From Deltaproteobacteria bacterium (GTDB lineage Bacteria; Desulfobacterota; DSM-4660; Desulfatiglandales; Desulfatiglandaceae), in contig JAIPDI010000001.1 of NCBI GenBank assembly GCA_021737785.1, positions 62,001-126,000 on the forward strand: a DNA stretch of 64,000 nucleotides, written 5' to 3'. Positions 2,684 to 59,493 of this stretch are shown piece after piece. Both the position numbers and the translations under genes were made by a program. The notes beneath the pieces were generated by a model, which searched no databases, was not told where the DNA came from, and worked only from the letters and a program-made list of their open reading frames with translations. Every line of letters begins with the position of its first letter. Positions within the stretch are counted from its first letter, which is position 1.

Positions 2684-2798
2684 ACGAAGCCCCTCCCCCC
2701 GGCCCGCCCTCCCGACTCGGTTCGATATTCGGGCGACAGGGCCGCGGCACTCTCCTGCATCAAAAAACGGAATTCAGCTGTCCGCTTTTTTCTCAAGA

Positions 2799-3254
2799 TT
2801 ATGGGTGCCTCTCCCGGATGCTGAGAACAGGACGCCTGGCAAGCCGAACGACCTTTTCTGCGACCGAACCGAAGACAAGGCGTTTTAATCCGGTTTGGCC
2901 CCGGGTGGCGATGACGATAACGTCCACGTTTTCATTTTCGGCGGTATTCACAATCTGATCGGCGGGATCGCCCGAAGATAATATCCTGCGGGTCGAAACA
3001 CGTTCAGGTATCCTCTTTCCGATTTGCTCTTCCAGGACCTTCATCGACGATGCTTCCATTACCTTCTGATATTCCTGAACATTGAAGGCTGCTGGGCTCC
3101 TGTACTCCGTTGCGATAACCGGAATCGGCGCTACGACGTGGATGACGATCAGCTCGGAGGAAAAATGCAAGGCCAGTTCGGTGGCCACTTCCAACGCCTC
3201 AAAAGATGGATCGCTGAAATCCGTAGGACATAGGATCTTTTTTAAAGGCAACAT
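2799..3254 (-). CDS. universal stress protein (UspA family)
   Basis: A 151-residue cytoplasmic protein. It opens MLPLKKILCPTDFSDPS, the first beta strand of the UspA fold, and its C-terminal half has the nucleotide-loop pattern ATRGQTGLKRLVFGSVAEKV, close to the G-2x-G-9x-G-S/T signature of ATP-binding Usp proteins. The ATG at 3254 is chosen because AGGAGG sits six to seven bases upstream; an upstream extension to 3371 has no such site and no family similarity. Usp proteins are induced by starvation or membrane stress and often pair with ion transporters. A second, two-domain Usp is encoded at 41093-41992. It is transcribed toward the acyl-CoA synthetase, about 115 bases away, and may be co-transcribed with it. 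Confidence 0.9.
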   Translation of the reverse strand: MLPLKKILCPTDFSDPSFEALEVATELALHFSSELIVIHVVAPIPVIATEYRSPAAFNVQEYQKVMEASSMKVLEEQIGKRIPERVSTRRILSSGDPADQIVNTAENENVDVIVIATRGQTGLKRLVFGSVAEKVVRLARRPVLSIRERHP

Positions 3255-3933
3255 GTAGACCTCCTTTCTTGGGTGGACAATGTGGATAAGATAATGTGGT
3301 CCATGGCATGTCGGGTGGAAAGCAGTGCGGTCCGCTCCCCGCCTTATCCCATCCCTGATGAAATGCAACACCTGTGCCTTTCCTGTCAGGGGGTCTGCAA
3401 AGCTGCCGTGGATCGCTGCAAAAGGATCTCCTCATGTCGCACCGCACCGGGGGAGCAGCAAATCCATCTCCTGTTTCCGAAAACAGGCAGCCGTCTAAGT
3501 CACTAAAAGAATTTGTTTTTGACAAAGTTTCCATTGTCCATGATTTTCTTTATCTCTTCTAATCTCAAAAATCTGCTGTCTATCAAATTTGCAGAAATCA
3601 TTTGAAGCTCAGGGGGGAACTGAATGATCTATTCCGGAAAGTCTCACGCTGCGGTTTACAGTTAGTAAAAGAAATCGACACATGTCGCTGTGAATCGAAT
3701 CCCAAACATATTTGTGCTCTATGAAAAACAATAGGATTTCAATTAATTGGGATCTTACTCCCTCTTTTTCTTCTGTTGGCACATCGGTTGCTAGAGAATG
3801 ACAGAAGAGAAGATGCGTGGATACGTCGCGCGACCCATATACTCATTTAACGTCGGTACGAGAAGAGGGGGAAGGCATTCCCCGGAGGTCGCTGCAATCA
3901 TTTTCATCCGCTTGAGGGAAAGGGGGTGTCAGC
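3255..3933. other. intergenic region between divergent genes, no gene seen
   Basis: These 679 bases separate the leftward Usp gene from the rightward 3934 gene. Reading frames here are short and lack family similarity. The stretch from about 3500 to 3780 is clearly more AT-rich than the surrounding coding DNA, fitting promoter DNA for both sides. I could not fix a convincing -35/-10 pair. Confidence 0.5.
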
Positions 3934-5698: not shown

Positions 5699-6214
5699 AT
5701 GACGGCGATGAAGGTAAAAGCGCTTTTCAAGGAGTACTTGAAGGAGTTATCCGATACAACCCTGCGGGGGGACGCACGTGAGGAAAGCTTCTATCCGGCC
5801 CTGGCGAACCTGTTTCACGAGGTCTCCGAGACCACCGACCGCTCCCATGTCCCTGTCACCACCCTTCCCAAACCCACGGACGCGGGCAACCCCGACTTCC
5901 GCCTCTAGAACGGCACAGACCGAATCATCGGGTACATCGAGGCCAAAAGGCCCACTGAGGAATGGCTCGATCTCATTGAAGGCACTGACCAGCTTCGGCG
6001 CTACCGGTCCACCTTTCCCAACCTCATCCTGACCAACTTCCTCGAATTCCGCCTGTACCGGAACGGCGAACTGGTGGAAACGATCCTTTGCGGCCGGCCC
6101 GTGGTACTCAACAAACTCGGCATGGCCCCGCCCATGACGGGTATGGGCGTGTCGCCAAGGGCTATGGATATCACAGGATTTTTGAGCTTGACGATGTTCT
6201 GGGTTTTGACATAA
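5699..6214 (+). pseudogene. N-terminal remnant of a Type ISP-like restriction-modification enzyme (DNA N6-methylase type)
   Basis: The frame reads MTAMKVKALFKEYLKELSD, then LPKPTDAGNPDFRL, an in-frame TAG at 5906-5908, then NGTDRIIGYIEAKRPTEEW, FPNLILTNFLEFRLYRNGE and VVLNKLG before similarity is lost near 6120. This is the N-terminal nuclease-like domain of large single-polypeptide restriction-modification proteins; the PD-(D/E)xK-like residues would be D in NPDF and E-x-K in YIEAK. The expected residue at the stop is W (TGG to TAG is one change). The rest of the gene, methylase and target-recognition parts, is missing, but its extreme C-terminus is found at 7737-7928 in the same orientation. 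The gap between holds the AbiE pair. Confidence 0.7.
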
Positions 6215-6337
6215 GGAATAGGATAATACACGCGGATGGGATTTTTTGAATTCGATGCAGCGTTCTCATCAAGGAACCGTAGGCATATCTCACGTTTTCG
6301 ATGTCCGGAATTTTTTGAGTTTTAAAAAGATACACCT

Positions 6338-8521: not shown

Positions 8522-9148
8522 AGTATCCTATCGAAAGCGGTCTCCAACTCCGCTCCCTGCCGATAGAAGCCTGCAGACTTGAGGCGGCGTCAAGGCCCTG
8601 AATCCTGAAGACTACGAGCAATGACAAGGATATTCTTCATGACCATGGCAGCCGCCAAAGCCCAGTCCGACAGCCGCTCGACCCCCTCCTGGCGATCAAG
8701 GAGGATATTGGCAATCAGGATACCCAATATCTTGTGGCCGTCGGACAGGCACGCTAGAAATTTAGGCCTGGGGCTATGTAAGGTTATCAGGTTCTTGATG
8801 GGTCAAAATTTTTGAGATTTCCAAAACATAGCTTTCTGCTTCAGATAGTTGCTAGACGCGATCCGTTCTAACGTTCGGTCAAGCCTCTGTGGTCATGGAT
8901 ATACCATCTCCGGCTACCACCCTATGCATCTTCGAACCTCCCACAGCCTCGCGACCCCATACCCATCAACAGAGATGTCACAACCACCTTTTTGGCGCGG
9001 AACAGTTCTGGTATCGCTCTATTCGTCTTTGTCCCGCACCATCTCACTTACCCCCTCTCTAAACTTAATCCTATTTTTGCTTGCCTATTAAAACATATCA
9101 TGGTATAAGCCATTCATTCTAAAATAACCCGCAAATCGAGGAGGTCCC
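8522..9148. other. intergenic region with a short unrecognised coding remnant
   Basis: About 630 bases without a clear gene. A frame ending at 8755-8757 reads PLDPLLAIKEDIGNQDTQYL and a few residues more, which looks like the last 30 residues of some real protein but has no start or recognisable domain. The part from 8820 to 9100 is noncoding in appearance. Just upstream of 9149 a TTGCCT and TATAAG spaced 17 bases apart may be a weak promoter for the HTH gene. Confidence 0.3.
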
Positions 9149-23169: not shown

Positions 23170-24735
23170 ATGGGGTTGACCAAGTTGAAACAAAAGAAAA
23201 ATGGGCCCATCCGGCACTCCATAAGGTTCAAAATTTTCCTTGTGAGCCTGGTGCCGACCATTGCCTTGCTGATGGCCGCGCTTCTCAATAATCAATACTT
23301 GAACTCGCTGGGGGAGAGTGCTGAGCAGATTCTGTCCAAGAACTACAAGAGCATTCGCGCCGCTCAAGAAGCGCGAAAGACTCTGGAAGAGATACGAAAC
23401 CTGCTCCTGGAGCAGGTCCCACGGGATCAAAAAACGATTATTGTTCCTTTGGAAACCCTTCGGAAGTTGTCCTCCAATCTCAACATCTGCCGGGAAAATA
23501 TCACAGAGGAGGGAGAGCGTGAGCTGATCGATCGTTTATTCGACAGCTATCGTCGATATCAAGCGCTTGCTCGTTCCCTCGTTGAAGCAACCGGCCCTCT
23601 TTGGCCCAGTGACCGTTTTACGGGCTTTCTCAAATTGACGGCCGGGATGGTGACCCTCATCGATGATCTGGTCGCCGTCAATGAAGGGGCTATGGAGCGT
23701 GCAGAGCAGGAGACTCGCCTTCTGGCACGCCGGGCACAACGGAACGCTGCCGTGCTGTTCGGCATCATCATTACGGCCATATTGGCCTTGAGCTATTTTT
23801 TGTCTTACCGTATCGCCAAGCCCATCATGATTCTCGCCCGTGAGCTTTCAAAGACGAAGGAGGGGGCCGGCAGCTACCCCATGATTCCTTCGCGAACCAA
23901 TGACGAGATCGGGTTCTTGACGGAATCCTTCAACCGCCTGTTCAGCCGCCTGGAACAATACGACCATCATCGCGATGACATCATCGCCGCCGAGAGGGAA
24001 AAGGTCCGCCGAAGCGAGGAGGCCAAAGGACGGTTTATTGCCGAGATCTCTCATCAGCTCAAAACGCCGATGACATCACTTGCCATGAGTGTGGGCATGC
24101 TTTACAGCCGGGGCCAAGGACTGGATGCCAAGAAAAAGGCCACACTGGTTTCCACAGCCCATGACGATTGCACGCGGTTGACCGCGTTGATCAATGAGCT
24201 TGTGGATATATCCCGCCTTGAGACCCTGTCGCGACCGCGACCCAAAGAGACCCTTGACATCGGCCTGGTTGTCCGGGAATGCCTGGCCCCGCTGATGAAA
24301 CAGGCTGAAAGCAGGGGCATTTCTATTGAGATCGACATGCCGGACAACCTGCCGAAAATGACGATCGATTCTTTCCGGTTTCCTTGGGTGCTAACGAATC
24401 TGGTGGGGAATGCCCTCCGATATACGGATCGCGGTGGTCGGATCATACTGAAGGTCTTTATTGAGGGATCGCGTTTTTATTTTCAGTGTAACGACACCGG
24501 CAGCGGCATCGATCCAGAATTTCTTCCCCATATCTTTGATCGGTTCGCCCAGTTTTCGGAACGCGGCAAAAGCGGCACCATCGGGCTCGGACTGGCGATC
24601 GTAAAAGACATCATCGAACAGCACGGCGGCGACGTCCAGGTTCAGAGCAAGGTGGGGGAAGGGACGACATTTACGTTCTGGATACCGGCTTTTAAGGAGG
24701 AAAATGGTGAAAAAAACGCTGATCATCGACGATGA
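23170..24735 (+). CDS. membrane sensor histidine kinase (first of two in the block)
   Basis: A 521-residue protein. Helix 1 at about 20-40, a 150-residue extracytoplasmic helical sensor opening with QILSKNYKSIRAAQEARKTL, helix 2 at about 195-215, HAMP (to about 270), HisKA with H295 in AEISHQLKTPMTSLAMSV, and a HATPase with N-box NLVGNALRYTDRGG and G-boxes DTGSGIDPEFLPHIF and GLGLAIVKDIIEQHGG. The sensor region is like that of the second kinase at 26300 (ILSENYRSILAAENMVDALE), a KinB-type four-helix sensor. It overlaps its response regulator by 32 bases, so the two form a coupled system. The ribosome-binding site is poor at the ATG used. No PAS domain is visible. Confidence 0.9.
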   Translation: MGLTKLKQKKNGPIRHSIRFKIFLVSLVPTIALLMAALLNNQYLNSLGESAEQILSKNYKSIRAAQEARKTLEEIRNLLLEQVPRDQKTIIVPLETLRKLSSNLNICRENITEEGERELIDRLFDSYRRYQALARSLVEATGPLWPSDRFTGFLKLTAGMVTLIDDLVAVNEGAMERAEQETRLLARRAQRNAAVLFGIIITAILALSYFLSYRIAKPIMILARELSKTKEGAGSYPMIPSRTNDEIGFLTESFNRLFSRLEQYDHHRDDIIAAEREKVRRSEEAKGRFIAEISHQLKTPMTSLAMSVGMLYSRGQGLDAKKKATLVSTAHDDCTRLTALINELVDISRLETLSRPRPKETLDIGLVVRECLAPLMKQAESRGISIEIDMPDNLPKMTIDSFRFPWVLTNLVGNALRYTDRGGRIILKVFIEGSRFYFQCNDTGSGIDPEFLPHIFDRFAQFSERGKSGTIGLGLAIVKDIIEQHGGDVQVQSKVGEGTTFTFWIPAFKEENGEKNADHRR

Positions 24736-26032
24736 CCGCAACATCCTGACCACCCTGGAGATGTATCTCGAAAATATGGGTTTCGATGTGGTTACGGCGA
24801 CCTCGGGTGAAGCGGGACTTCAGAGTCTTCGAAGCGACCCCCCGGACCTGGTGCTGCTGGATATGAAACTGCCGGATCGCAACGGGTTGGAAGTGCTGAA
24901 AGAAATCGTTGCCAGCGGCATCAAGACCCAGGTGCTGATGATCACCGCCTATGCCACCATAGAGACCGCGGTTCGTGCCGTCAAAATGGGCGCATTCGAC
25001 TATATTCCCAAACCATTTGCCCCGGATCAACTGGATCTTGTCTTGGAAAGGCTGAAGCGGTTTCAGAACATGGAGGTGGAGATCGCCACCCTCAAGGGCA
25101 TCTTCTCAGAGGGGGGCATCCTGACGCGCAACCCCAGGATGCGAAAGATTCTGCAGACAGCGCGTCAGGCGGCCGATTCAGAGGCCATTGTTTTGATCAG
25201 CGGAGAAAGCGGCACCGGAAAAGGCCTTCTGGCGCGCTTGATTCACGACTGGAGCCCACGCTCGGGTCGGCCCCTGGTTACGGTCGATTGCGCGGCCCTG
25301 CATGAGAATTTGCTTGAAAGCGATCTGTTCGGCCATGTCAAAGGGGCATTCACCGGCGCTCTGCGCGATAAGGCGGGCAAGCTTCAACTGGCCGAGGGCG
25401 GCACGGTTTTTCTGGACGAAGTTTCGGAGATACCGACAGCGGTTCAGGGAAAGCTCCTCCGTTTCATACAACATCGCGAGTACGAACGGGTGGGCGACCC
25501 CAGGCCGCACACCGTGGACGTGCGCATCATCGCTGCGACCAACAAGGATCTGGAAGAGATGGTTCATGAAGGGGCGTTTAGAGAAGACCTCTATTTCCGC
25601 CTCAACGTGCTGGAACTCTTTCTCCCCCCCTTGCGGGATCGACCTGAAGATATCCAACTCCTTGCCGAGCACTATCTGCAGCGATCAGCCCGCCTGAACC
25701 ATAAGGCGATCCAGGGCATCACCGCCGAAGCCATGCAACGGCTCCAGAGCTATCCCTGGCCCGGGAATGTCCGCGAACTGATCAACACCATCGAACGTTC
25801 CGTGATTATGGCGCATGACATGGAACTCAAGCTCACCGACCTGTCTTCAAACATTGCGAATTTCAATCCCAACGCCCTTGCTGATGCTTCTTTACAGAGT
25901 CTGACCGACATGGAAAAACGGCACATTCAGAAGGTGATCCTCCATTCTCCTTCCCTTGAAGAGGCCGCCAGGGTGCTGGGCATCGACCCGGCCACCTTGT
26001 GGCGCAAGCGCAAAAAATACAATCTGGATTGA
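24704..26032 (+). CDS. sigma-54-dependent response regulator (NtrC family)
   Basis: A 442-residue transcription activator: receiver domain with D10/D11 and phosphoacceptor D53 (LVLLDMKLPD), AAA+ domain with Walker A GESGTGKG (167-174), GAFTGA loop (214-219), Walker B VFLDEVSEI and the arginine region, and a C-terminal Fis-type helix-turn-helix (SLEEAARVLGIDPATLWRKR). AAGGAGG precedes the ATG inside the end of the kinase gene. Target promoters should be sigma-54 type; none was identified in the window by eye. Likely targets include the downstream kinase and trk genes. Confidence 0.93.
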   Translation: MVKKTLIIDDDRNILTTLEMYLENMGFDVVTATSGEAGLQSLRSDPPDLVLLDMKLPDRNGLEVLKEIVASGIKTQVLMITAYATIETAVRAVKMGAFDYIPKPFAPDQLDLVLERLKRFQNMEVEIATLKGIFSEGGILTRNPRMRKILQTARQAADSEAIVLISGESGTGKGLLARLIHDWSPRSGRPLVTVDCAALHENLLESDLFGHVKGAFTGALRDKAGKLQLAEGGTVFLDEVSEIPTAVQGKLLRFIQHREYERVGDPRPHTVDVRIIAATNKDLEEMVHEGAFREDLYFRLNVLELFLPPLRDRPEDIQLLAEHYLQRSARLNHKAIQGITAEAMQRLQSYPWPGNVRELINTIERSVIMAHDMELKLTDLSSNIANFNPNALADASLQSLTDMEKRHIQKVILHSPSLEEAARVLGIDPATLWRKRKKYNLD

Positions 26033-26299
26033 GCCTTGCAAGTTGCAATCCGCTTTTCGTGCAAAATTCAAGGTAACCTTCGTCATCGTCCCACAAGCCT
26101 CAGGCTAACATCACCATTTCCCATGCAATTCCAATAAGATCGAATTAAGGGCATCCTTTTTGCTTTCCGCAGAGACTATGCAGATTCCCCTATGCCTGTC
26201 CTCATTCATAAGCCGAATTAAGCGCAGCGATGGATCTGCATGCATTTCTGTTCGTTCTAACATTGATGGCTGCGGAGAGCGACGGCGGGACCGTGTCCA

Positions 26300-28132
26300 A
26301 TGACGTTAAAGAAAAAAATTCTCATCGGATATGGCGTTTCCTTTGCCCTCATGGGTCTTGTGGTCGCATGGGCCGTTACGAACCTGGTATCTCTGGGCAA
26401 GGCCACCGACGCCATCCTGAGCGAAAACTACCGGAGCATTCTTGCCGCCGAAAACATGGTGGATGCACTGGAACGGCAGGACAGCGGCATTCTGCTCATG
26501 TTCCTGGGTGATACAGAAAAAGGGATCGCTCAATTCCGTGAAAACGAGGCGGTCTTCCTGGGGTGGTTTGCCCGCGCCGAGGACAACATCACGATTGCCG
26601 GCGAGGCGGAGCTTGTCCAGTCTATTGCGGCTGATTACGCGACCTATCGGCAACATTTTTCCGCCTTGACCGATTTGCGCGTTGCGGAAAACCCGCCCTT
26701 GCGGCCCGCCAATTATCAGGAAACGGCCTACCCCCTGTTCGCTAAAGTGCGAGAGGTGTGTATTCAGCTGCGTAATCTTAACGAGGAGACCATGTACTCC
26801 GCCAGCGTGCGGGCCGGCAAGGTGGCCAATCGCGCCATCTGGTCCACGGTGATCGTGGCGGCGTCGGCACTGATCGTGGCGTTAATGTTCAGCTTGTATC
26901 TCGCGGAGCGGATCGTCCGTCCGATCCGGCGTTTCATGGAGGCATCCAGGCAGATCTCCTCGGGCGATTATGCTGTTCAGGTGCCCGTGGAAACCGGTGA
27001 CGAACTGGGCCGTCTGGCCGGCGAGTTCAACCAGATGGCCTCCCAGCTTGGCCGGTACCACGAGATGAACATCGAACAGATCGTCTCGCAGAAGAACAAG
27101 GGGGACGCGATCCTTTCCAGTATCGAGGATGGTCTGGTGGTCTTCGACACCGGCCTCAAGATGACGGACATCAATCCGGCCGCACGCCGGATGCTGGACT
27201 TGGAATTCGCCGAGGCCCCGACCCTGGCGTGCGCGGACATCCTGCCCACTCCCGATGTGTGCGAGATAATTCGAGAGACCGTCGAAACGGGGATGCATCC
27301 CAATATCCCCGAGGAGCAGCGGATCATTACCCTGCCTGAGGGAGATCGGTCGCGGCACTATCTATATTCCGTGGCCGCGATTCGCGGAAGGGATCGCACC
27401 CTGTCCGGCATCGTGCTCCTGCTCAGGGACGTCACTCGTTTAAAGGAAGTGGAAAGGCTCAAAAGTGACTTTGTTATGGCTGCCTCTCATGAGCTGCGCA
27501 CACCGCTGACCAGTCTGGGCATGAGTGTGGATCTGCTCCTCGAACACGCAGCCCAAGCTCTTGGCGAGAAGGATCGGGACCTTCTCCGGGCGGCTCACGA
27601 AGAAGTCCACCGCATGAAGGCACTCGTCAATGATCTGCTTGACCTCTCAAAAATCGAGGCGGGCAGGATCGAACTGGAGTTCGAAAGTGTTCCGGTCCCC
27701 ACCTTGTTTGGGCACGTTGAAGCGGTTTTCAAAAGTCAGACGGACATGAAACAAGTTTCGCTGACATCAGAGCCTACCGAAGAGTTGCCCAAGGTTCGCG
27801 CGGATGCCAACAAAATAACATGGGTATTGACCAATCTGATTTCAAATGCTCTGCGATACGTGAGCAAAGGCGGCCACATACGTCTCTCAGCACACAGGAT
27901 CGGGCCTCACGTTCACCTCTCCGTGCGAGATGATGGGCCGGGAATCTCTCCTGAGTACCAGTCCAGGATATTTCAGAAATTCATCCAGATTAAGGGTCAA
28001 GAAGCGGGTGGGACGGGTTTAGGCCTGGCCATCTGCAAGGAGATCGTTCGCGCCCACGGAGGCGCGATTTGGGTCGAATCGTCCGCAGGTCAGGGAAGCA
28101 CCTTCACATTCACCCTGCCGGTGGCCCAATAG
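26300..28132 (+). CDS. membrane sensor histidine kinase with HAMP and PAS (second in the block)
   Basis: A 610-residue protein. Helix 1 at about 8-30, a helical extracytoplasmic sensor like that of the kinase at 23170, helix 2 at about 180-200, HAMP (to about 255), a PAS domain (AILSSIEDGLVVFDTGLKMT to GIVLLLRDVTRLKEVERLKS, about 270-385), HisKA with H397 in AASHELRTPLTSLGMSVDLL, and a HATPase with NLISNALRYVSKGGH and GTGLGLAICKEIVRAHGG. The architecture is that of KinB/NtrY-like kinases. The receiver-TPR gene follows after nine bases with AGGAGGAA. Confidence 0.92.
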   Translation: MTLKKKILIGYGVSFALMGLVVAWAVTNLVSLGKATDAILSENYRSILAAENMVDALERQDSGILLMFLGDTEKGIAQFRENEAVFLGWFARAEDNITIAGEAELVQSIAADYATYRQHFSALTDLRVAENPPLRPANYQETAYPLFAKVREVCIQLRNLNEETMYSASVRAGKVANRAIWSTVIVAASALIVALMFSLYLAERIVRPIRRFMEASRQISSGDYAVQVPVETGDELGRLAGEFNQMASQLGRYHEMNIEQIVSQKNKGDAILSSIEDGLVVFDTGLKMTDINPAARRMLDLEFAEAPTLACADILPTPDVCEIIRETVETGMHPNIPEEQRIITLPEGDRSRHYLYSVAAIRGRDRTLSGIVLLLRDVTRLKEVERLKSDFVMAASHELRTPLTSLGMSVDLLLEHAAQALGEKDRDLLRAAHEEVHRMKALVNDLLDLSKIEAGRIELEFESVPVPTLFGHVEAVFKSQTDMKQVSLTSEPTEELPKVRADANKITWVLTNLISNALRYVSKGGHIRLSAHRIGPHVHLSVRDDGPGISPEYQSRIFQKFIQIKGQEAGGTGLGLAICKEIVRAHGGAIWVESSAGQGSTFTFTLPVAQ

Positions 28133-28141
28133 GAGGAACAC

Positions 28142-28864
28142 ATGGAAAAGAAACCCATTCTGGTCGTTGACGACGAGAAGAACATCCGTCTTACCATGTC
28201 GCAGTCATTGGAGCCGCTGGGTATTCCAATCCAGACGGCCGTGAATGGCGAGGAAGCGCTTCGGAAGCTCCGCGAAACTCCGTTCGGCTTGGTGTTTTTG
28301 GATTTGAAGATGCCAGGGATAGACGGGATGGAGGTCCTTCGGCAAATCAAGGACGACTGGCCCAAAATCCGGGTGATCATCATCACTGCACACGGGACGA
28401 TTGAATCCGCGGTTGAGGCCATGAAACTCGGCGCGGTGGACTTCATTCAGAAGCCTTTCAACCCCGGTGAGATTCGAGAGTTGGCCACCCAAGTGCTCCA
28501 GCGCGAGGCGCTGAGTGAAGAGAACGCTGTCGATTACCTTTCGTTGATCGAGCTCACCAAGCGCCACATCTCGGATCGTGGATTTTCAGCCGCCCGTGAA
28601 ACGGCGCGAAAGGCCATAGCGGCGAACCCGGCTAAGCCGGAGGCATACAACCTTCTCGGGGCGTTGCTTGAAATCAAGGGTGATTGGCTGGAGGCCCAGA
28701 AGTTTTACCGGGCGGCCTTGGATATCGACCCCACGTTCAAACCGGCCTCTGCGAACCTGAACCGGACCACGTCCTGGAATAAATTCGGCGGGATCGATCT
28801 CGGGCCGGACAAGAAAGCCACGGATTCAAGGGACGACAACGCCGAAGAGGGCTCGAATGAGTAA
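28142..28864 (+). CDS. response regulator with C-terminal TPR-like repeats and no DNA-binding domain
   Basis: A 240-residue cytoplasmic protein: receiver domain 1-125 with D10-D11, D54 (VFLDLKMPG), the T (ITAHGT) and K (QKPF) switch residues; then helices LIELTKRHISDRGFSAARET and AIAANPAKPEAYNLLGALLE with GDWLEAQKFYRAALDIDPTF, a pair of TPR-like repeats (about 140-210); then a polar tail. There is no output domain for DNA or enzymatic activity, so output must be by protein contact. It overlaps the next gene, a TrkA-type protein, by eight bases, which makes a Trk protein a likely partner. Confidence 0.85.
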   Translation: MEKKPILVVDDEKNIRLTMSQSLEPLGIPIQTAVNGEEALRKLRETPFGLVFLDLKMPGIDGMEVLRQIKDDWPKIRVIIITAHGTIESAVEAMKLGAVDFIQKPFNPGEIRELATQVLQREALSEENAVDYLSLIELTKRHISDRGFSAARETARKAIAANPAKPEAYNLLGALLEIKGDWLEAQKFYRAALDIDPTFKPASANLNRTTSWNKFGGIDLGPDKKATDSRDDNAEEGSNE

Positions 28865-29297
28865 TAACCGCTACATCGTGATCGTAGGCTGCGGCCGGCT
28901 TGGCTCTCATCTGGCCAACCACCTCAGTCGCGCCGGAAATTCGGTAGTGGTAATCGATAGGGACGAGCCGACTTTCAACGACCTGTCGCCCGATTTCAGC
29001 GGCTTTCGAGTTCACGGGGACGCCACCCAGATGGCCGTGCTCAGGGAGGCCAAGGTCAAGAATGCGGATGTTCTGATTGCCACGACACACGAGGATAACG
29101 TCAATTTGATGGTGGCCCAGGTGGCCCGGGGGATTTTCAGTGTTCCCCATGTATTGGCCAGGGTTTTCGACCCCAAGAGAGAGGAAGTCTACGCGCAATT
29201 GGGCATTGATACCATATGCCCGACTTCCGTGGCCGCAAAGATGTTCCTTCGGGCCGTTGCCGATGGCGCCGCCGAACGGGAAGGCGCACAATCATGA
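28857..29297 (+). CDS. TrkA-N (RCK) domain protein, short form
   Basis: A 146-residue cytoplasmic protein made of a single Rossmann RCK-N domain: YIVIVGCGRLGSHLANHLSR is the NAD/ATP-binding G-x-G-x-x-G loop, VVVIDRDEPTF the following acidic strand, and FRVHGDATQMAVLREAKVKN the nucleotide contact. No TrkA-C domain. It overlaps the receiver-TPR gene upstream and the full-length TrkA-like gene downstream (ATGA), forming a two-gene TrkA unit for the TrkH at 29969. Likely gates that channel in response to nucleotides. Confidence 0.88.
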   Translation: MSNNRYIVIVGCGRLGSHLANHLSRAGNSVVVIDRDEPTFNDLSPDFSGFRVHGDATQMAVLREAKVKNADVLIATTHEDNVNLMVAQVARGIFSVPHVLARVFDPKREEVYAQLGIDTICPTSVAAKMFLRAVADGAAEREGAQS

Positions 29298-29956
29298 AGA
29301 TTCTCATCGTCGGAGGCGGTAAAACGCTCTATTTTCTTAGCCGGAATTTTGCAGCGCGGGGATATCAGGTCGTCATCATCAACCGGAACCGGGAAGAATG
29401 TGTCCAGTTGGCCCGCCAACTGTCCGCCACGGTGGTTTGCGGAGACGGCAGCGATGCCGGGATTCTCAAGGAAGCCGGCGCAATGGGGGCCGACGCCATA
29501 CTCGCCATCACGCCGAACGACCAGGATAATCTGGTTATCTGTCAACTGGCCTCCCTCAAATTCGGTGTTCCCAGGACCGTGGCCCTGGCAAACGACCCCG
29601 ACAACGCCGAGGTGTTCGAAAAGCTGGGGGTCTCGGGCTTTTCCACAACCCGCATCGTCGGGAGTCTGATTGAGCAGCGGGCGTCGCTGGAACAGATCAC
29701 CAATTTGCTGCCCGTGGGCGAAGGCCGGGTGAATGTAACGGAGATCGTGCTCGATGACGATTCTCCCGTCGCAGGGAAATTGCTAAGGGATATCGACCTG
29801 CCTGAAAACGCCTTGGTGGCCGTCGTGATCCGCGACAACAGGCCGATCGTCCCCCGTGGAGCCAATGACCTGTTGGCAGGCGACCGCGTGGTCCTGATTA
29901 CGCTGCCGGAAAACCATGGCCCGGTGCTCAAGGCGTTCACCGGCGAACGGATTTAG
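29294..29956 (+). CDS. TrkA-family potassium uptake regulator (RCK-N plus RCK-C)
   Basis: A 220-residue cytoplasmic protein. RCK-N: MKILIVGGGKTLYFLSRNFA with VVIINRNREECVQLA and TVVCGDGSDAGILKEAGAMG; RCK-C from about 140: VTEIVLDDDSPVAGKLLRDI and LLAGDRVVLITLPENHG. The loop reads GGGKTLYF rather than the canonical G-x-G-x-x-G, so NAD binding could be altered. The ATGA overlap with the preceding gene shows coupling. It lies 12 bases before trkH. Confidence 0.87.
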   Translation: MKILIVGGGKTLYFLSRNFAARGYQVVIINRNREECVQLARQLSATVVCGDGSDAGILKEAGAMGADAILAITPNDQDNLVICQLASLKFGVPRTVALANDPDNAEVFEKLGVSGFSTTRIVGSLIEQRASLEQITNLLPVGEGRVNVTEIVLDDDSPVAGKLLRDIDLPENALVAVVIRDNRPIVPRGANDLLAGDRVVLITLPENHGPVLKAFTGERI

Positions 29957-29968
29957 AGGGGCCGGGCC

Positions 29969-31459
29969 TTGCGAGAGAAACAATACCTTAAACAGCGCTA
30001 TGCCGCGATCATTTCCTCCGTCGGCATGATCCTGCTTCTATCCAGCGCCGTGATGTTGACCCCACTTCTGATTCTCCTATCGCATCCCGGGGAGGCCGAT
30101 CACGCATGGGCCTTTGGTCTGCCCTCGGCCTCCCTTTTTCTCTTAGGAATTGCCTTGTGGAAGGCATTTCGTTCCCCGCTCAACATCACGCTCACTGTTC
30201 AGGAGGGCGGCATCATCGTTTTGTTGAGCTGGATCATCGTCATCCTCTTTTCAGCATGGCCGTTTGCATCCGCTTTGGGTCTCCCCTATTCACGGGCACT
30301 ATTTGAATCGGTAAGCGGATGGACCACCACCGGACTCTCGGTCGTGGACGTCACCAGCGCAGGCAAGATGATTCTGATCTGGAGAAGCATCATCCAATTG
30401 GCCGGCGGAGCAGGGTTGGCCATCCTCATGATGTCGGCCATCGTCGGTCCCGTTGGTGTCGGTATCTCGAGCGCGGAGGGCCGAAGCGACCAGCTCGTGC
30501 CGCATGTCCGGCAGTCGGCCCGGTTGGTTCTGATCATCTATGGCTGCTACGCCCTTGCCGGAACCTTTGCCTACTGGATGGCGGGCATGTCGCCTTTTGA
30601 CGCGGTCAACCATTCCTTCGCAGTTGTGTCCACGGGCGGATTTTCCACGCGAGTGGAGAGTATCGGATACTGGGACTCAACTGCCATCGAGGCCGTGACC
30701 CTGCCGCTGATGATTCTCGGTAGTTTAAGCTTTGTCACCGCATGGTTGCTGTGGCGCGGCAAGCTGCGCATGGTTACGCGAAACGGCGAGGTGCGCCTGC
30801 TGGTTGTGCTCATTCCTTTATCGGCCGCGGCCATTTTCCTCCTGACGAGCCACACGCTCTACCTACAGCTCGGGAAATCAATCCGAGTCGCTGTTTTCGA
30901 GACAGTGACGGCTATAACCACCACGGGATTTTCAACCGTAAGCTACGGCAATTGGAATGCCTTTGGTATGTTCCTGTTGATCATTCTGATGCTGATTGGC
31001 GGCGGAACGTGTTCAACGGCCGGCGGTATCAAGCAGTTTCGTGTTTATCTATTGTGGAAGATGCTCTACTGGGAAATCAAGCGCTACCTCATGCCCCGCA
31101 CCACGGTTTTGGAACGTCCCATGTGGGAGGGGAACAGGCGTGTTTTTGTGGATGACGCCAGGATTCGCCAGGTGATGGTTTTTATCTTCTTGTATTTGGC
31201 GACCTACGTATTCGGAGTCATGATCTTATGCGCTTGCGGCTACAGTCTTGGAGATTCTCTCTTCGAATTCGCTTCTGCTATCGGAACGGTTGGACTTTCG
31301 GTTGGCGTCACCACCGCCCAAATGCCGGATGCCGCCTTATGGACCGAAACCATTGCCATGTTTCTCGGGCGACTTGAGTTCATTGTGGTGCTCGTCAGTC
31401 TACTTAAGATCGGCGGGGACGGTCGGCGAATGTTGGCGCGGACACCAAAGGAAAAATGA
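29969..31459 (+). CDS. trkH: TrkH-family potassium transporter (first copy)
   Basis: A 496-residue membrane protein of the SKT superfamily with four pore repeats: SGWTTTGLSVVDV, VSTGGFSTRVESIG, AITTTGFSTVSYGNW and AIGTVGLSVGVTTA, each with the filter glycine. GGGTCSTAGGIKQFRVYLL is the TrkH intramembrane-loop motif. The start is a TTG at 29969 with GAGGGG nine bases upstream. Full length for TrkH rather than the shorter KtrB. It works with the two RCK proteins encoded just upstream. Confidence 0.92.
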   Translation: MREKQYLKQRYAAIISSVGMILLLSSAVMLTPLLILLSHPGEADHAWAFGLPSASLFLLGIALWKAFRSPLNITLTVQEGGIIVLLSWIIVILFSAWPFASALGLPYSRALFESVSGWTTTGLSVVDVTSAGKMILIWRSIIQLAGGAGLAILMMSAIVGPVGVGISSAEGRSDQLVPHVRQSARLVLIIYGCYALAGTFAYWMAGMSPFDAVNHSFAVVSTGGFSTRVESIGYWDSTAIEAVTLPLMILGSLSFVTAWLLWRGKLRMVTRNGEVRLLVVLIPLSAAAIFLLTSHTLYLQLGKSIRVAVFETVTAITTTGFSTVSYGNWNAFGMFLLIILMLIGGGTCSTAGGIKQFRVYLLWKMLYWEIKRYLMPRTTVLERPMWEGNRRVFVDDARIRQVMVFIFLYLATYVFGVMILCACGYSLGDSLFEFASAIGTVGLSVGVTTAQMPDAALWTETIAMFLGRLEFIVVLVSLLKIGGDGRRMLARTPKEK

Positions 31460-31463
31460 TGTG

Positions 31464-32066
31464 ATGAAAAAAGAAGAGATCAAACCAACTGGAGCGGATA
31501 CCGGGGGAAACCTCCGGTTCTTGCTATGCGACATCGCCGGCGGCATCGCTGGTCCGTCATGGCCCAAGGAAGAATGGGTTGCCAGCCCGATCCAATGCCT
31601 CGACAGGGCCGTTGACTGGAAACCTAAGATTATTGTGGTTTTATTTGGGCAGATGTCCATCCGGGAACGCGAAGCCCTCGTGGAATTGAGTACCGCGCTG
31701 AAACGAAACAGCCACACCAAACAGTGTCCCGTGCTGGTTCTCCTGCGTTCAAAACACCGCAAGTTGATTGAAGATCTGGAGAGAGCAAAAGCCGATTACG
31801 TGCGGTATATCGGTGAAGTCAAGCTGAATTCAAGTATAGTGCGGGAGATCATCGAAAATTTGGGATCAGAAGACCGTCTCCAGCGACACCTGGAGACGCT
31901 ATGCCCTTTTCTGCATTACAGCAAGATCGATTCACAACGTGAGATGACGGTATGCGGGGCGTACCTGGACCGGATGTTCCTTGGAGGTCGTCGCCTTCAC
32001 GAGCTGTGTCAAACCAAAGCCCACCTCCACTGTGAATACTATTTGAATCCGAGAGTGAAGAGATGA
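31464..32066 (+). CDS. unrecognised receiver-like protein with C-terminal cysteine cluster, inside the trk block
   Basis: A 200-residue cytoplasmic protein with AAAGGAAAA ahead of its ATG. Residues 17-135 alternate hydrophobic strands and helices (LRFLLCDIAGG, PKIIVVLFGQMS, CPVLVLLRS, ADYVRYIGEVK) like a degenerate CheY fold without the phosphoacceptor pattern. The last 55 residues contain C147 (LCPFLHY), C164 (MTVCGAYLDR), C182 (LHELCQTKAH) and C190 (LHCEYY) with H187 and H189, spaced C-x16-C-x17-C-x7-C, which suggests an iron-sulfur or zinc site. It starts five bases after trkH and overlaps the next trkH by four (ATGA), so it is translated as part of the potassium block. No known Trk accessory protein has this form to my knowledge. 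Confidence 0.75.
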   Translation: MKKEEIKPTGADTGGNLRFLLCDIAGGIAGPSWPKEEWVASPIQCLDRAVDWKPKIIVVLFGQMSIREREALVELSTALKRNSHTKQCPVLVLLRSKHRKLIEDLERAKADYVRYIGEVKLNSSIVREIIENLGSEDRLQRHLETLCPFLHYSKIDSQREMTVCGAYLDRMFLGGRRLHELCQTKAHLHCEYYLNPRVKR

Positions 32067-33433
32067 TCTTTCGCAGTCGAATCCTCAAATTGCACCCGGC
32101 GACACTCGTGCTGAGCAGTTTTCTCTTGGCCATCACCGTGGGCGCGCTCCTGCTCAAAATACCGATTTCCACCCATCCCGGTCATATCCCCTGGGTGGAT
32201 GCGCTGTTTACCGCCACTTCGGCCGTATGCGTCACCGGGCTGATTGTCGTGGATACGGGGAGTTATTTCACCCCGTTTGGGCAGGGTGTGATCCTGGCCC
32301 TCATCCAGATGGGTGGATTGGGGGTCATGACCATAGCGGTTCTGCTGTTTAAATGGATCGGCCGCAGCATCTCCTTTCGTCAGCGAATGGCCATGCAGGA
32401 CCTGTTTGCCCATACGCCCCGGGAGGATATTCTCGGGCTGGTCAAGGGTGTTGTGGTGTTGACCATCACAGCGGAAGCCATCGGCGCTCTCTTGTTGACC
32501 ATTCACTGGAGCAGGGAGTTTCCATTCCTGCGAGCGCTCTATACAGCCATCTTTCACTCGGTGTCGGCCTTCTGCAATGCCGGATTTTCCATTTTTCCCG
32601 ACAGCATGATGCAATACAGCGACGACCTCCTTCTCAACATGACCATGTGCGGGTTGATTATCGGCGGGGGCATCGGATTCCCGGTTCTCCATGACCTGCG
32701 ATCCTGGATCAAGTTTCGCAAACACCAGCGCCAGAGGCTTTCGATTCAAACCAAGACGGTGCTGCTGACCACCTTGATCCTGATCGTGTCCGGGGCCTTG
32801 ATGTTTGCCTTCCTGGAGCGACAACCCCTTAGAGACGCGCCATCCTTTTCCCATCATATCCTGACCCCCATTTTCCAGTCCATCACCTGCCGAACCGCCG
32901 GTTTCAACACGGTGGATATTTCGCGCCTGAAAGAGGCCACGCTCGCAATGATGATTTTCCTGATGTTTTTCGGCGCATCGCCCGGCTCTTGCGGGGGAGG
33001 GGTCAAGACAACCACGCTGGCCCTCATCACCGTATTCATGGTGAGCCGGATCAGGAGAAGGCGGCGTGTCAATATCTTCAAAAAAAGCATTCCCGCAGAA
33101 ACAGTGACCCGAAGCGTATCGCTGATTCTCGTTTCCATCGGAATCATCGCTTTGATTCTGTTTTTGATCCTTGTAGGCGACGCTGTGAGTGGTCGAGACG
33201 ACCCTGCTCAGGCGGGATTTTTTCTCGCTTGTTTTTTTGAGACGGTATCGGCCTTTGGAACGGTGGGTTTGTCCATGGGTGTTACACCTCACCTGAGCAC
33301 ATGGGGCAAGTGCTTAATTGTATTAATGATGATTATCGGCAGGGTGGGGGTGCTCACCTTCTCTTACATTGTTTTGCGCACAGGGATCGCCAATGGGATC
33401 GAGCACGCCGAAGAGAACATGATGATCGGCTGA
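32063..33433 (+). CDS. TrkH/KtrB-type potassium transporter (second copy)
   Basis: A 456-residue membrane protein. Pore motifs are TSAVCVTGLIVVDTG, VSAFCNAGFSIFPDS, CRTAGFNTVDISRL and VSAFGTVGLSMGVTP, and GASPGSCGGGVKTTTLA is the intramembrane loop of the Ktr/NtpJ-like branch. The first filter, VCVTGL, is KtrB/Na+-dependent-type. It begins with an ATGA overlap on the Cys-cluster gene and is followed 47 bases on by its own RCK gene. Its paralogue at 57353 is closely similar throughout. Confidence 0.92.
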   Translation: MIFRSRILKLHPATLVLSSFLLAITVGALLLKIPISTHPGHIPWVDALFTATSAVCVTGLIVVDTGSYFTPFGQGVILALIQMGGLGVMTIAVLLFKWIGRSISFRQRMAMQDLFAHTPREDILGLVKGVVVLTITAEAIGALLLTIHWSREFPFLRALYTAIFHSVSAFCNAGFSIFPDSMMQYSDDLLLNMTMCGLIIGGGIGFPVLHDLRSWIKFRKHQRQRLSIQTKTVLLTTLILIVSGALMFAFLERQPLRDAPSFSHHILTPIFQSITCRTAGFNTVDISRLKEATLAMMIFLMFFGASPGSCGGGVKTTTLALITVFMVSRIRRRRRVNIFKKSIPAETVTRSVSLILVSIGIIALILFLILVGDAVSGRDDPAQAGFFLACFFETVSAFGTVGLSMGVTPHLSTWGKCLIVLMMIIGRVGVLTFSYIVLRTGIANGIEHAEENMMIG

Positions 33434-33500
33434 GAGGTAGCAGAGCATCCAGTATTCATCATCCAGACAGGAGCCTAAAAATGAAACGATTCGCGGTCAT
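33418..33500 (+). repeat. copy 1 of noncoding sequence shared by both trkH-trkA pairs
   Basis: From ACATGATGATCGGCTGAGAG through the intergenic ATCCAGTATTCATCATCCAG to the start ATGAAACGATTCGC, this stretch is almost identical to the junction of the second pair (58699-58850). In this copy the two conserved halves are directly joined; in the other they are separated by about 72 extra bases. Confidence 0.8.
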
Positions 33501-34137
33501 AGGGCTTGGCAATTTCGGTTTTCACGCGGCCAAGGCCCTGTATGAAGATGGAAACGAAGTCATCGCCATTGACCTCAACAAGGGGCGGGTACAGGCAGTC
33601 GACCCCCACTGCAGCGAGGCGATCGTCCTGGATGCCACGGACAAAGAGGCCTTGAAAACGCTCGGATTGGAAACCATGGATGGGGTGATTGTGTCCACAG
33701 GCACCAAAATCAGCAGCAGTATTCTGATCTGCCTCTATCTGCAGGAGATGGGGGTCAAAAAGATCCTTGTCAAGGCGTTGGACGAGGACCACGAAAAAAT
33801 TCTGAAACGGGTGGGAGCGACGGATATCATCCATCCTGAAAGGGACATGGCCCTGCGAATATCCAGAGGCCTGTCCCGGCCGAATATGCTGGATTTTATC
33901 CCCCTTTCCGACGAGTTCGACCTTGTCCAGATCGGGCCGCCAAGAGACTTCATCGGAAAAAGTCTAAATGAGCTGAATCTGAGGGCCAAGTACAATGTCC
34001 ACATCATCGCCATTCACGAGATTGTCCCGGAGAATTTCCGTCTTGTCCCTCCGGCAAACTTTGTGATCAAGGACAGCGACATCCTGATCATGCTGGGCAA
34101 ATCCGAGGATATCAGGCGGATCAAGGCGTTGAAATGA
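33481..34137 (+). CDS. KtrA/TrkA-type RCK protein (paired with the second trkH)
   Basis: A 218-residue cytoplasmic protein: MKRFAVIGLGNFGFHAAKAL is a perfect G-x-G-x-x-G nucleotide loop, VIAIDLNKGRVQ the acidic strand, and the C-terminal RCK-C domain runs from VQIGPPRDFIGKSLNELNLR to ILIMLGKSEDIRRIKAL. AGGAG lies eight bases upstream. KtrA proteins form octameric rings that open KtrB on ATP binding. Paralogue at 58837 (clearly more than half of residues identical by eye). The DNA just upstream is almost identical to that before the 58837 gene. Confidence 0.92.
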   Translation: MKRFAVIGLGNFGFHAAKALYEDGNEVIAIDLNKGRVQAVDPHCSEAIVLDATDKEALKTLGLETMDGVIVSTGTKISSSILICLYLQEMGVKKILVKALDEDHEKILKRVGATDIIHPERDMALRISRGLSRPNMLDFIPLSDEFDLVQIGPPRDFIGKSLNELNLRAKYNVHIIAIHEIVPENFRLVPPANFVIKDSDILIMLGKSEDIRRIKALK

Positions 34138-37045: not shown

Positions 37046-37597
37046 ATGAAGAAAGAAGATAAATCCCGTGTCTCATGGCATGCCCCGGAAACCGATCGCG
37101 TATTCGAGCAATTAACGACTGTGCCCGAGGGGCTGGCCCATGAGGACGCTCAAAGGCGCATGCTGGAATACGGGCCGAACCGTCTGCGGCCCAAGAAAAG
37201 GCGCAGTGCCTGGACTCTTTTTCTGAACCATTTCAAGGAGCTTCTCATTTACGTCTTATTGATCTCCGCAGGCGTCACCGCTGTTATTGGTCACTGGGTG
37301 GACGCAGGCATCATTCTTGGTGTGGTTATCCTGAATGCACTCATTGGGTTCATACAGGAGGGAAAGGCTGAAAAGGCCCTTGAGGCGATACGTGACCTGC
37401 TCTCGTCACAGGCCACTGTCATGCGCGGCGGAGAACGGGTCATTATTCCATCTGAGCAGTTGGTTCCGGGAGATATTGTCTTGATACAATCAGGCGACAA
37501 GGTCCCGGGAGATCTGCGGTTGTACAAAACGAAAAGTCTTCGTATCGATGAGGCCTCACTCACGGGCGAGTCGGTGCCTGAGATTCTTTTCACCTGA
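37046..37597 (+). pseudogene. P-type cation ATPase, N-terminal fragment only
   Basis: The 183-residue frame carries the Cation_ATPase_N domain (HAPETDRVFEQLTTVPEGLA, YGPNRLRPKKRRSAW), two membrane helices (LLIYVLLISAGVTAVIG and GIILGVVILNALIGFIQEG) and the actuator domain as far as the catalytic loop SLTGESVPE, then stops. Everything after TGES, including the DKTGT phosphorylation site, is missing; intact enzymes have about 900 residues. A 6-base repeat GTGCCT flanks the last 18 bases before the stop, hinting at a small insertion, and another stop follows soon after. The intact promoter means the fragment may still be made. It is of the Ca2+/Na+/K+-type subfamily. Confidence 0.8.
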
Positions 37598-57293: not shown

Positions 57294-57352
57294 ATCTGCA
57301 CAGACTGTGATAACTTCTTTCCAATTTTAGTATTCACGGAGATCGCAACGAG

Positions 57353-58717
57353 ATGCCGTCCTGGCTCAAAAGCCGATTCCACCACGCCCACCCAACCAGC
57401 TTGCTGCTGATGAGCTATTTGGCGGCAATTGCCTTCGGAACGTCTGTCCTGATGCTGCCGATCTCTACGGTGAACGGCCATATCAGACTTATCGACGCCC
57501 TGTTTACGGCCACCTCCGCCGTGTGCGTCACCGGGCTGATCGTGGTGGATACCGGCGCCTATTTCACGGCCTTTGGTCAGGCGGTAATCCTTTGTCTGAT
57601 CCAGATCGGCGGATTGGGGATCATGACCATTTCAGTGGCCCTGTTCCGGATCATCGGCAAAAAGGTCGTTTTCCAACAGCGCATGGCCATGCAGGAGGTC
57701 TTCTCCCATACGCCCCGGGAGGACATTTATTACCTGATCCGCTCAGTGCTGTTTTTTTCATTTTTGATCGAGACTGTTGGCGCGATCATTCTTTTTTTAT
57801 ATTGGCGACCCGCGTATCCTTTTTCCGAGGCCCTTTACAAGGCCGTTTTTCACTCGGTTTCCGCCTTCTGCAATGCCGGTTTTTCTCAATTCAGCAACAG
57901 CCTTATGGATGCCCGGGGCTCCGTGATGTTGAATGCGACCGTGTGCGGACTGATCGTTCTGGGCGGCATCGGGTTTCCGGTGGTCTATGAACTCTATCGC
58001 CGCGGCCTCTTGCGGGAAAAGGGCAAGGTATCGATCCAAACCAAGAGCGTGGTGCTCACAACCGTCGGTTTGACTGTGGCGGGTGTCCTGGTCATACTGG
58101 TTTCCGAACGAACATTGGTTCCCTCCCTCGGCTGGGGCAAGGGCCTGTTGACGGCGGTTTTTCAATCGGTGACCTGTCGTACGGCCGGGTTCAATACGCT
58201 GGATATCGCATCGCTCAATACGGCCACCCTGCTGTTCATGATGTTTCTCATGCTGGTGGGGGCTTCTCCGGGATCGTGCGGGGGCGGCGTCAAAACCACC
58301 ACTTTTGCCGTGCTGACCGCCTTTTCATGGAGCCGGCTGATGCGCTACAAATGCGTGAATCTGTTCGGCAAAACCGTGCCCGAAGATACGGTCACCAAAA
58401 GTATTTCCGTCCTGGTGTTTTCGGTGGCGGCCATCTGCATCGCCGTCTTTTTAATTCTGTTCATCGACCCGGATCATGGTGCGCGCGTCCAGGGAGATCG
58501 TCAGTTCTTAGGCTTTCTCTTCGAAACGGTCTCGGCATTCGGTACGGTCGGTCTTTCCATGGGCGTTACCCCGGCCCTCACCTTTTCTGGAAAACTGGTG
58601 ATCATCGTGCTCATGATCATCGGTCGCGTAGGCGTCCCGGCCTTTACCTATATTATCGCCGGAGGCGGTTCGACCAAGGGGATTCAGTACGCCGAAGAAA
58701 ACATGATGATCGGCTGA
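57353..58717 (+). CDS. TrkH/KtrB-type potassium transporter (third copy)
   Basis: A 454-residue membrane protein with pore motifs TSAVCVTGLIVVDTG, VSAFCNAGFSQFSNS, CRTAGFNTLDIASLN and VSAFGTVGLSMGVTP, and GASPGSCGGGVKTTTF. Closely related over its whole length to the 32063 copy, including conserved internal stretches such as HTPREDI and SIQTKSVVLTT. It is followed by an RCK gene in the same arrangement. Whether the two operate in parallel for different ions (K+, Na+) cannot be told. Confidence 0.92.
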   Translation: MPSWLKSRFHHAHPTSLLLMSYLAAIAFGTSVLMLPISTVNGHIRLIDALFTATSAVCVTGLIVVDTGAYFTAFGQAVILCLIQIGGLGIMTISVALFRIIGKKVVFQQRMAMQEVFSHTPREDIYYLIRSVLFFSFLIETVGAIILFLYWRPAYPFSEALYKAVFHSVSAFCNAGFSQFSNSLMDARGSVMLNATVCGLIVLGGIGFPVVYELYRRGLLREKGKVSIQTKSVVLTTVGLTVAGVLVILVSERTLVPSLGWGKGLLTAVFQSVTCRTAGFNTLDIASLNTATLLFMMFLMLVGASPGSCGGGVKTTTFAVLTAFSWSRLMRYKCVNLFGKTVPEDTVTKSISVLVFSVAAICIAVFLILFIDPDHGARVQGDRQFLGFLFETVSAFGTVGLSMGVTPALTFSGKLVIIVLMIIGRVGVPAFTYIIAGGGSTKGIQYAEENMMIG

Positions 58718-58850
58718 GAGGTAGCAGAGCGCGTGGAGCAGGGAGCAGGGGGTAGGGAGTTGTCGGTGATCTGTTTATCGGACCGGGTACTCCGAATCCA
58801 ACATCCAGTATTCATCATCCAGACAGGAGCGTAAAAATGAAACGATTCGC
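58699..58850 (+). repeat. copy 2 of noncoding sequence shared by both trkH-trkA pairs, with an extra 72-base insert
   Basis: The end of trkH and the next 16 bases, and then the 46 bases from ATCCAGTATTCATCATCCAG to the trkA start, match 33418-33500 with one change (GAGCGTAAAA versus GAGCCTAAAA). Between the halves lie about 72 bases starting GCGTGGAGCAGGGAGCAGGG, which look like the low-complexity, G-rich type of dispersed intergenic repeat. Confidence 0.8.
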
Positions 58851-59493
58851 CGTGATCGGCACGGGGAGCTTCGGCTACCATGTGGCCAAGGCCCTTTATG
58901 AGAACAAGAACGAGGTGATCGCCATCGATCGGAACAAGGATCGCGTGCAGGCCATCGAACCCTTTTGCACCAGCGCCATGGTTCAGGATGTTACCGACAT
59001 GGAGGGCCTCAAAGGCCTGGGACTCGAGGAGATGGATGCCGTTATTGTGAGCACGGGCGCCAATATCAAGCCCAGCATTCTGATCTGCTTTTACCTGAGC
59101 CGCCTCGGGATCAAGCGCATCATTGCCAAGGCCGAGGACGATGATCACGGAGAGATCCTTATGCAATTAGGGGCCACGGAAATTATCCGGCCCGGCGTGG
59201 ATATGGCGCATCGTCTGGCCATGCGCCTGACATCGCCGAACATCTTGGAATTTTTGCCTTTGGGAGAGGATTATACCATCGCCCATGTCGAGCCGCCGAC
59301 GTCCTTCATCGGCAAATCGCTCAAGGACCTGGACCTGCGCAAGCGTTATGAGGTCAACATCATCGCTGTCAAGGAATCGGACCCGGAACGGTTTGTCATA
59401 GTCCCTAATGCCGATTTCACCGTAGAAGAGAACGATATTCTCATTATCCTGGGCAAGGAGACGGACCTGACCAAGATCAGGGAACTGAAATGA
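58837..59493 (+). CDS. KtrA/TrkA-type RCK protein (paired with the third trkH)
   Basis: A 218-residue cytoplasmic protein. MKRFAVIGTGSFGYHVAKAL is the nucleotide loop, VIAIDRNKDRVQAIE the following strand, SMVQDV-like and the RCK-C domain from HVEPPTSFIGKSLKDLDLRK to ILIILGKETDLTKIREL. It has the same length as the 33481 protein and aligns with no gaps; about 55-60 percent of residues look identical by eye. AGGAG lies eight bases upstream, inside the shared repeat. Confidence 0.92.
   Translation: MKRFAVIGTGSFGYHVAKALYENKNEVIAIDRNKDRVQAIEPFCTSAMVQDVTDMEGLKGLGLEEMDAVIVSTGANIKPSILICFYLSRLGIKRIIAKAEDDDHGEILMQLGATEIIRPGVDMAHRLAMRLTSPNILEFLPLGEDYTIAHVEPPTSFIGKSLKDLDLRKRYEVNIIAVKESDPERFVIVPNADFTVEENDILIILGKETDLTKIRELK

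Follow-up and report, generated by a model that had tools for sequence, protein, structure and literature searches.

The window, the whole 64,000-nucleotide stretch of DNA analysed here, encodes between two potassium-transporter genes a 200-aa protein that joins a pseudo-receiver to an unclassified domain with four invariant cysteines (gene X, 31464 to 32066, forward strand; 36 copies aligned). The gene is co-inherited with those for potassium uptake, and its product probably adjusts that uptake in response to a metal or redox signal. Pseudo-receivers, including some that are switched through cysteines, are already known. The combination of a pseudo-receiver and a four-cysteine (Cys4) domain tied to a potassium channel gene, however, had no match in the libraries or open-access literature searched; a search of that literature by title or abstract start found no paper on an X-like protein.

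Results

Gene X starts with an ATG at 31464 and ends with a TGA at 32064 to 32066. Both of its neighbours match TIGR00933 and PF02386. The original prediction of a new receiver-like protein between two trkH genes holds, as do the predicted reading frame and cysteine spacing. The left-hand gene, trkH1 (29969 to 31459), adjoins X as predicted, at a distance of four bases (31460 to 31463) rather than five. The predicted coupling to the right-hand gene is also present: trkH2 (32063 to 33433), of KtrB-like length (456 aa; TIGR00933 score of 340.8 bits, above the cut-off), begins at 32063 and overlaps the end of X as ATGA. It is followed by the KtrA-like trkA3 (33481 to 34137; TrkA_N and TrkA_C, PF02254 and PF02080).

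The locus reads in one direction on the forward strand. A histidine kinase gene, HK' (23170 to 24735; PF00512, PF02518), lies upstream of an NtrC/AtoC-type sigma54-dependent response regulator gene (24704 to 26032; PF00072, PF00158, PF02954). Then come a histidine kinase with HAMP, PAS, HisKA and HATPase domain matches (26300 to 28132), a response regulator with TPR repeats (RR-TPR, 28142 to 28864; PF00072 and TPR models), trkA1 (28857 to 29297; TrkA_N only, PF02254), trkA2 (29294 to 29956; TrkA_N and TrkA_C, PF02254 and PF02080), trkH1, X, trkH2 and trkA3. At 28857 to 29956 TrkA is encoded as two overlapping halves, of which the first has TrkA_N alone and the second both TrkA_N and TrkA_C. 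Elsewhere in the window there is a second trkH2-like/trkA pair (57314 to 58714 and 58756 to 59490), which has no X and whose TrkH is 55% identical to TrkH2. A 183-aa open reading frame at 37046 to 37597 resembles, by eye, the N-terminal part of a cation P-type ATPase and is truncated ahead of a phosphorylase-like gene that lies on the opposite strand.

Overall, we found 36 copies of X in 35 genomes, plus one deletion scar (locus L077). In genome contigs, the proteins of Desulfosarcina widdelii (L003) and of a Deltaproteobacteria MAG are 66% and 67% identical to the window protein, respectively. The genome from which the window comes has a single X and otherwise one match to the Cys-domain profile, at E 1.29. 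A family-level whole-genome search located X in 4 of 46 genomes, and a class-level profile search matched 9 of 85, of which seven have X and two gave weak matches to ordinary receivers. In a sample of 395 genomes from the phylum, nine matched the Cys-domain profile. X occurs in 3 of 21 genomes from the order of genome G428, and 24 copies were detected in 23 of 194 genomes from the order of genome G240 (Cys-domain profile, E≤0.1), where all non-X matches had E values of at least 0.008. Weak receiver-only profile matches were not counted as X. The full-length alignment holds 33 copies (pairwise identity: minimum 20.5%, median 32%) and the Cys-domain alignment holds 36; three short or cut copies (L025, L073 and L074) are in the latter only, and the scar, which lacks a Cys domain, is in neither.

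X is a real, conserved gene under purifying selection. With the window protein as one partner, pN/pS is 0.30 versus L002 and 0.32 versus L003; for the Cys domain alone the values are 0.23 and 0.16, and they span 0.16 to 0.26 across the three comparisons among these sequences. The ratio is lower in the Cys domain than in the receiver in all four comparisons among the window, L002, L003 and L031. It is not lower in the Cys part between L075 and L076, where the automatic cut left just 15 codons.

Residues 14 to 137 (31503 to 31874) are predicted to adopt the (beta-alpha)5 receiver (REC) fold. AlphaFold2, run with the 33-row alignment, returned a model of X with mean pLDDT 90.2 and pTM 0.85. The best VIA-align match to residues 14 to 137 is KdpE (4l85_C; Z 12.8, rmsd 3.1 over 112 residues, 15% identity), with CheY, PleD and Spo0F just behind, and nearly all of the matches listed are receivers. 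Foldseek matches to receivers reach E 1.2e-05. By sequence the relationship is faint: the X family profile detects true receivers at E 1e-06, Pfam Response_reg matches none of the 33 members (E≤1), the PleD model weakly matches 6 of them (best E 0.021), and the best solved structures are PleD receivers at a nonsignificant E of 0.26.

The active site of this receiver is gone, as the original prediction of a degenerate receiver without a phosphoacceptor pattern had it. With positions assigned from the strand ends of the model, the phosphoacceptor position (60, at the end of strand 3) is Asp in only 1 of 33 full-length copies; 16 of the 33 have Asp at position 23, position 24 is not acidic, and there is neither a conserved T/S near 95 nor a conserved K near 116. 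By the DD, D, T/S and K residues that mark a phosphorylatable receiver, X is not one. In the available text of PMC12632262, a pseudo-receiver, or aspartate-less receiver, is defined as a receiver fold without the phosphoacceptor Asp, and the receiver half of X is one by this definition because the fold is present and that residue is lost. Other positions are retained: R99 in every copy and H98 in 30 of the 33. Cysteines are frequent in the receiver without being invariant (C22 in 26/33, C45 in 29/33, column 76 in 27/33; the window protein has Ser at column 76).

The Cys4 domain (residues 146 to 197; 31899 to 32054) is the better conserved half, with mean pairwise identity of 52% versus 29% for the receiver. 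Its cysteines are spaced C147-x16-C164-x17-C182-x7-C190 in the window protein, and the original prediction had proposed an alignment of homologues as the check on them: all four are invariant in 33/33 full-length proteins and 36/36 Cys domains. P148, A166, R170 and L173 are also invariant in the full-length set, and the proline after C147 is found in 35 of the 36 domains. The two histidines that had been predicted as additional ligands do not share this conservation (H187 in 27/33, H189 in 10/33), and we reject a Cys4-His2 metal site on these grounds. There is no CxxC pair among the invariant cysteines of the 36 domains, and the predicted X model contains no metal. At two loci this half of the protein remains while the receiver does not remain whole. 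In L025 (G240, a single-contig genome) X is an 80-aa open reading frame (8796 to 9038) from which the receiver is deleted in frame while the Cys domain is intact, and in L074 the receiver is shortened and the Cys domain retained. L077 (G588) is the reverse case: a scar reading frame (5857 to 6279) consists of a kinase N-terminus followed by a fragment of the X receiver and the final residues of X; it lacks the Cys domain and still reads into trkH2.

Profile and Foldseek searches, which might have returned a known family with another function, matched none. Whole X gave just weak, inconsistent matches to Pfam, NCBIfam and PHROGs, on which grounds we reject membership in a known family, and a phage collection gave one match at chance level. 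TrkA_N (PF02254) and TrkA_C (PF02080) are absent from the matches of all 33 members, so X is not a TrkA/KtrA RCK subunit. For the Cys domain there was no Pfam consensus and no NCBIfam or PHROG match; Zn_ribbon_3 matched 1 of 36 domains weakly (E 0.21), and no solved chain matched by sequence better than E 1.6. Predicted alone (pLDDT 79), the domain had a best Foldseek E value of 3.5, which is no match, and nothing at Z≥2 in VIA-align. The absence of fold matches to this model does not establish a new fold, nor does it exclude the zinc-finger class. A C-x17-C-x7-C motif with 'TE-H..CP' may also occur in other proteins of Deltaproteobacteria. Searched as a DNA pattern, it was absent from all 85 genomes covered, and a regular expression applied to the fetched loci and the window recovered X proteins, scattered and mostly out-of-frame matches, and one ferredoxin-like sequence. 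The pattern is very strict, so the idea of a broader protein family for the Cys domain simply gains no support from it.

On the downstream side, trkH2 directly follows X in 31 of 35 copies (excluding L062, which ends at a contig edge), and the ATGA overlap with the trkH2 start occurs in 23 of 36, including the remnant in L060; L052, L073, L075 and L076 have an ATGA string that is not on an ATG trkH2 start and were not counted. The copies without an intact trkH2 directly behind are L060, L073, L075 and L076. L060 retains about 38 codons of a broken trkH2 start behind X and has an intact trkH2 on another contig. In L075 and L076 a kinase gene follows, overlapping the X stop as TTGA; ntrC is present and there is no adjoining trkH2. 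Upstream, the neighbour is trkH1 in 15 copies, an ntrC-type gene in 17, a kinase gene in 2 (L029 and L054), an unrelated gene in 1 (L062) and a contig end in 1 (L073). Apart from L062, every copy with readable context has a kinase gene, an NtrC-type gene or trkH1 in its locus.

Several loci have been rearranged. In L056 (G613; reverse strand, 2614 to 3324) the trkH2 beside an intact X (237 aa for trkH2) has lost a large internal part in frame; genome G613 also has a second X-trkH2 locus (L057). In L052 (G487; reverse strand, 566 to 3322) a 919-aa open reading frame, which by eye resembles a cation P-type ATPase, replaces RR-TPR between the kinase and trkA1. The X-trkH2 pair is retained there.

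The reverse count, from trkH2 to X, indicates how far the association extends. Within the class, X lies upstream of 7 of 8 trkH2 orthologues at ≥64% identity and of none of the more distant trkH2 loci examined. In the order of G240, where 30 trkH2 loci out of 34 places were examined, 17 have an upstream X that includes the Cys domain, 1 has the scar and 12 have no upstream X. Among these 12, X is displaced in G610. An RR-TPR gene precedes trkH2 in place of X in G074 and G581, and G074 has the order HK-RR-trkH2 with no X. Because many trkH2 orthologues lack it, X is accessory and dispensable for the transporter.

A candidate control region lies between the NtrC-type gene and the kinase gene at 26300. 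It comprises an inverted repeat TTGCA-N3-TGCAA (26036 to 26048) and a second, weaker copy (26059 to 26071), both putative enhancers, followed by a sigma54 (-24/-12) type site, GGGCATCCTTTTTGCT (26149 to 26164). Across 24 loci including the window, the pattern TGGCA-N6-TTGCW is found in 23 at ≤2 mismatches (0.07 in shuffles), mostly 115 to 124 nt past the ntrC stop, and the repeats in 21 and 17 at ≤1 mismatch (0.005 and 0.004 in shuffles, respectively). L025 and L054 were left out of this count and, checked later, are both positive. Four further pre-kinase regions gave three positives (L053, L061, L072) and one negative (L055), so five of six extra regions agree with the sigma54-type pattern. 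Counted within the window, neither pattern is more frequent than expected by chance; the evidence is the conserved position across loci.

At the sequence level, the -24/-12 type site with upstream repeats is the arrangement of a bEBP-controlled sigma54 operon, and the region from 26036 to 26164, with its 23 counterparts, probably marks a sigma54 regulon that serves potassium uptake by Trk/Ktr. Where X follows ntrC, the sigma54-type site directly precedes X. In the window it lies ahead of the kinase gene, and X would be the sixth gene of the resulting transcript. Such control of potassium uptake has a precedent in Desulfovibrio vulgaris, where, in the available text of PMC3333781 and PMC4641369, the Kdp potassium genes are under the control of DVU3334, a two-component regulator of the sigma54 type.

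Discussion

What does a receiver that can no longer be phosphorylated do beside a potassium channel? We tentatively propose, at a probability of roughly 45%, that X is a post-translational accessory regulator whose dead receiver docks and whose Cys4 domain, as a metal site or thiol switch, modulates TrkH2-TrkA3. Judging from the conserved control region, a sigma54-type promoter would drive the potassium-uptake locus, and X would be co-translated with the KtrB-like channel subunit TrkH2. The phosphorylation-dead receiver may then serve as a protein-docking surface through which X would bind TrkH2/TrkA3; docking on TrkH2 rather than on a kinase is suggested by the gene coupling. The Cys4 domain would carry a metal centre or work as a thiol switch, and its state would alter TrkH2-TrkA3 activity. 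The four invariant cysteines point to such a role, given that the protein is presumably cytoplasmic and that its hosts, related to sulfate reducers, are presumed to be anaerobes. Fe-S is slightly favoured over Zn on general knowledge, in view of the missing CxxC knuckle and the conserved Cys-Pro. In favour of the main reading are the invariant cysteines and stronger conservation of the Cys domain, its retention in L025 and L074, the frequent coupling to trkH2, the receiver fold without a phosphosite, the conserved control region and the precedent of pseudo-receivers that are redox-switched through cysteines (RitR and HP1021, PMC12632262). A more specific version, in which X is a channel subunit that senses redox or iron, is doubtful: here an Fe-S or thiol Cys4 domain, carried by a repurposed receiver, would gate TrkH2-TrkA3 and make potassium uptake in anaerobes depend on their redox or iron state. 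Counting against the main reading are L056, where trkH2 is internally deleted and X is intact, L075 and L076, where X is coupled to the kinase gene and no trkH2 adjoins it, L077, where the Cys domain is lost, the dispensability of X at trkH2 loci and the missing CxxC pair. The two roles offered by the original prediction fit these data: a redox- or metal-dependent switch of potassium transport would be consistent with the sequences, and a tie between two-component systems and transporters is consistent with them because X stays in a locus with kinases and an NtrC-type regulator.

That same context could place X on the signalling side, its dead receiver docking on one of the two histidine kinases, the NtrC-type regulator or RR-TPR and tuning their output with the Cys4 domain as input, and the trkH2 link would then reflect only the regulon. 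L075 and L076 argue for docking of this kind, as they keep X with ntrC and a kinase whose start it overlaps and have no trkH2; the position directly behind a kinase in L029 and L054 and the company of kinase, NtrC-type gene or trkH1 in nearly every readable locus point the same way. Yet 31 of 35 copies have trkH2 directly behind them, L060 still has a broken trkH2 start behind X, and L052 keeps the X-trkH2 pair despite its replaced RR-TPR, so we consider docking on the signalling proteins rather improbable. Obligatory structural zinc sites are common, and a small domain with four invariant cysteines, in which A166, R170 and L173 are also invariant in the 33 full-length rows, might hold a purely structural Zn, making X a constitutive assembly or docking factor for the transporter that senses nothing. 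The lack of a zinc-finger family or fold match and of a CxxC knuckle, together with the many orthologous loci that do without X, makes this unlikely.

The remaining two explanations give the protein a lesser part. Translation of X up to the ATGA junction might set trkH2 translation, with the protein secondary; the overlap in 23 of 36 copies and the L077 scar, which retains a reading frame into the junction, speak for such a leader. It would not need conservation at the protein level, however, and the invariant cysteines and Cys-domain pN/pS of 0.16 to 0.26 make a mere leader very unlikely. That X is no more than the decaying remnant of a response regulator, without a function today, is scarcely credible: the phosphosite is lost, the receiver is deleted in L025 and shortened in L074, and X is gone from some loci, but purifying selection acts on the Cys domain, which is invariant across many families.

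Should X be the redox- or iron-sensing channel subunit of the more specific version above, it would add a new type of input to the Trk/Ktr family and provide a concrete non-phosphorylation mechanism for a pseudo-receiver. If it senses metal or redox state, potassium homeostasis would be linked to redox in relatives of sulfate reducers. The switching of bacterial pseudo-receivers is described as a mystery in the available text of PMC12632262; with a pseudo-receiver joined to an unclassified four-Cys domain and genetically tied to one potassium channel class, X makes the switching question directly testable.

Parts of this arrangement have counterparts in known systems. The D. vulgaris DVU3334 system, like the X locus, has a sigma54-dependent response regulator for potassium uptake in a sulfate reducer, but it acts on a Kdp operon rather than Trk/Ktr, and the available text of PMC3333781 and PMC4641369 mentions no X-like gene. 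The TrkA/KtrA RCK subunits are soluble partners encoded beside TrkH/KtrB, as X is; they have the nucleotide-binding TrkA_N (PF02254), which X does not match. The KdpE receiver has the same fold as X; that it too belongs to a potassium-related locus is probably a coincidence. KdpE retains its Asp and a DNA-binding domain, whereas the alignment shows no such Asp in X and the family search no such domain, and the two are 15% identical. Closest in kind are the pseudo-receiver or ALR proteins, which, as described in the available text of PMC12632262 and PMC4395418, have a receiver fold without the phosphoacceptor Asp, like X. Among them, that text of PMC12632262 presents RitR and HP1021 as redox-switched through cysteines that lie in the receiver or linker, and as DNA-binding or transcriptional regulators. 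X, in contrast, matches no DNA-binding family, carries its four cysteines in a separate domain and adjoins a transporter gene.
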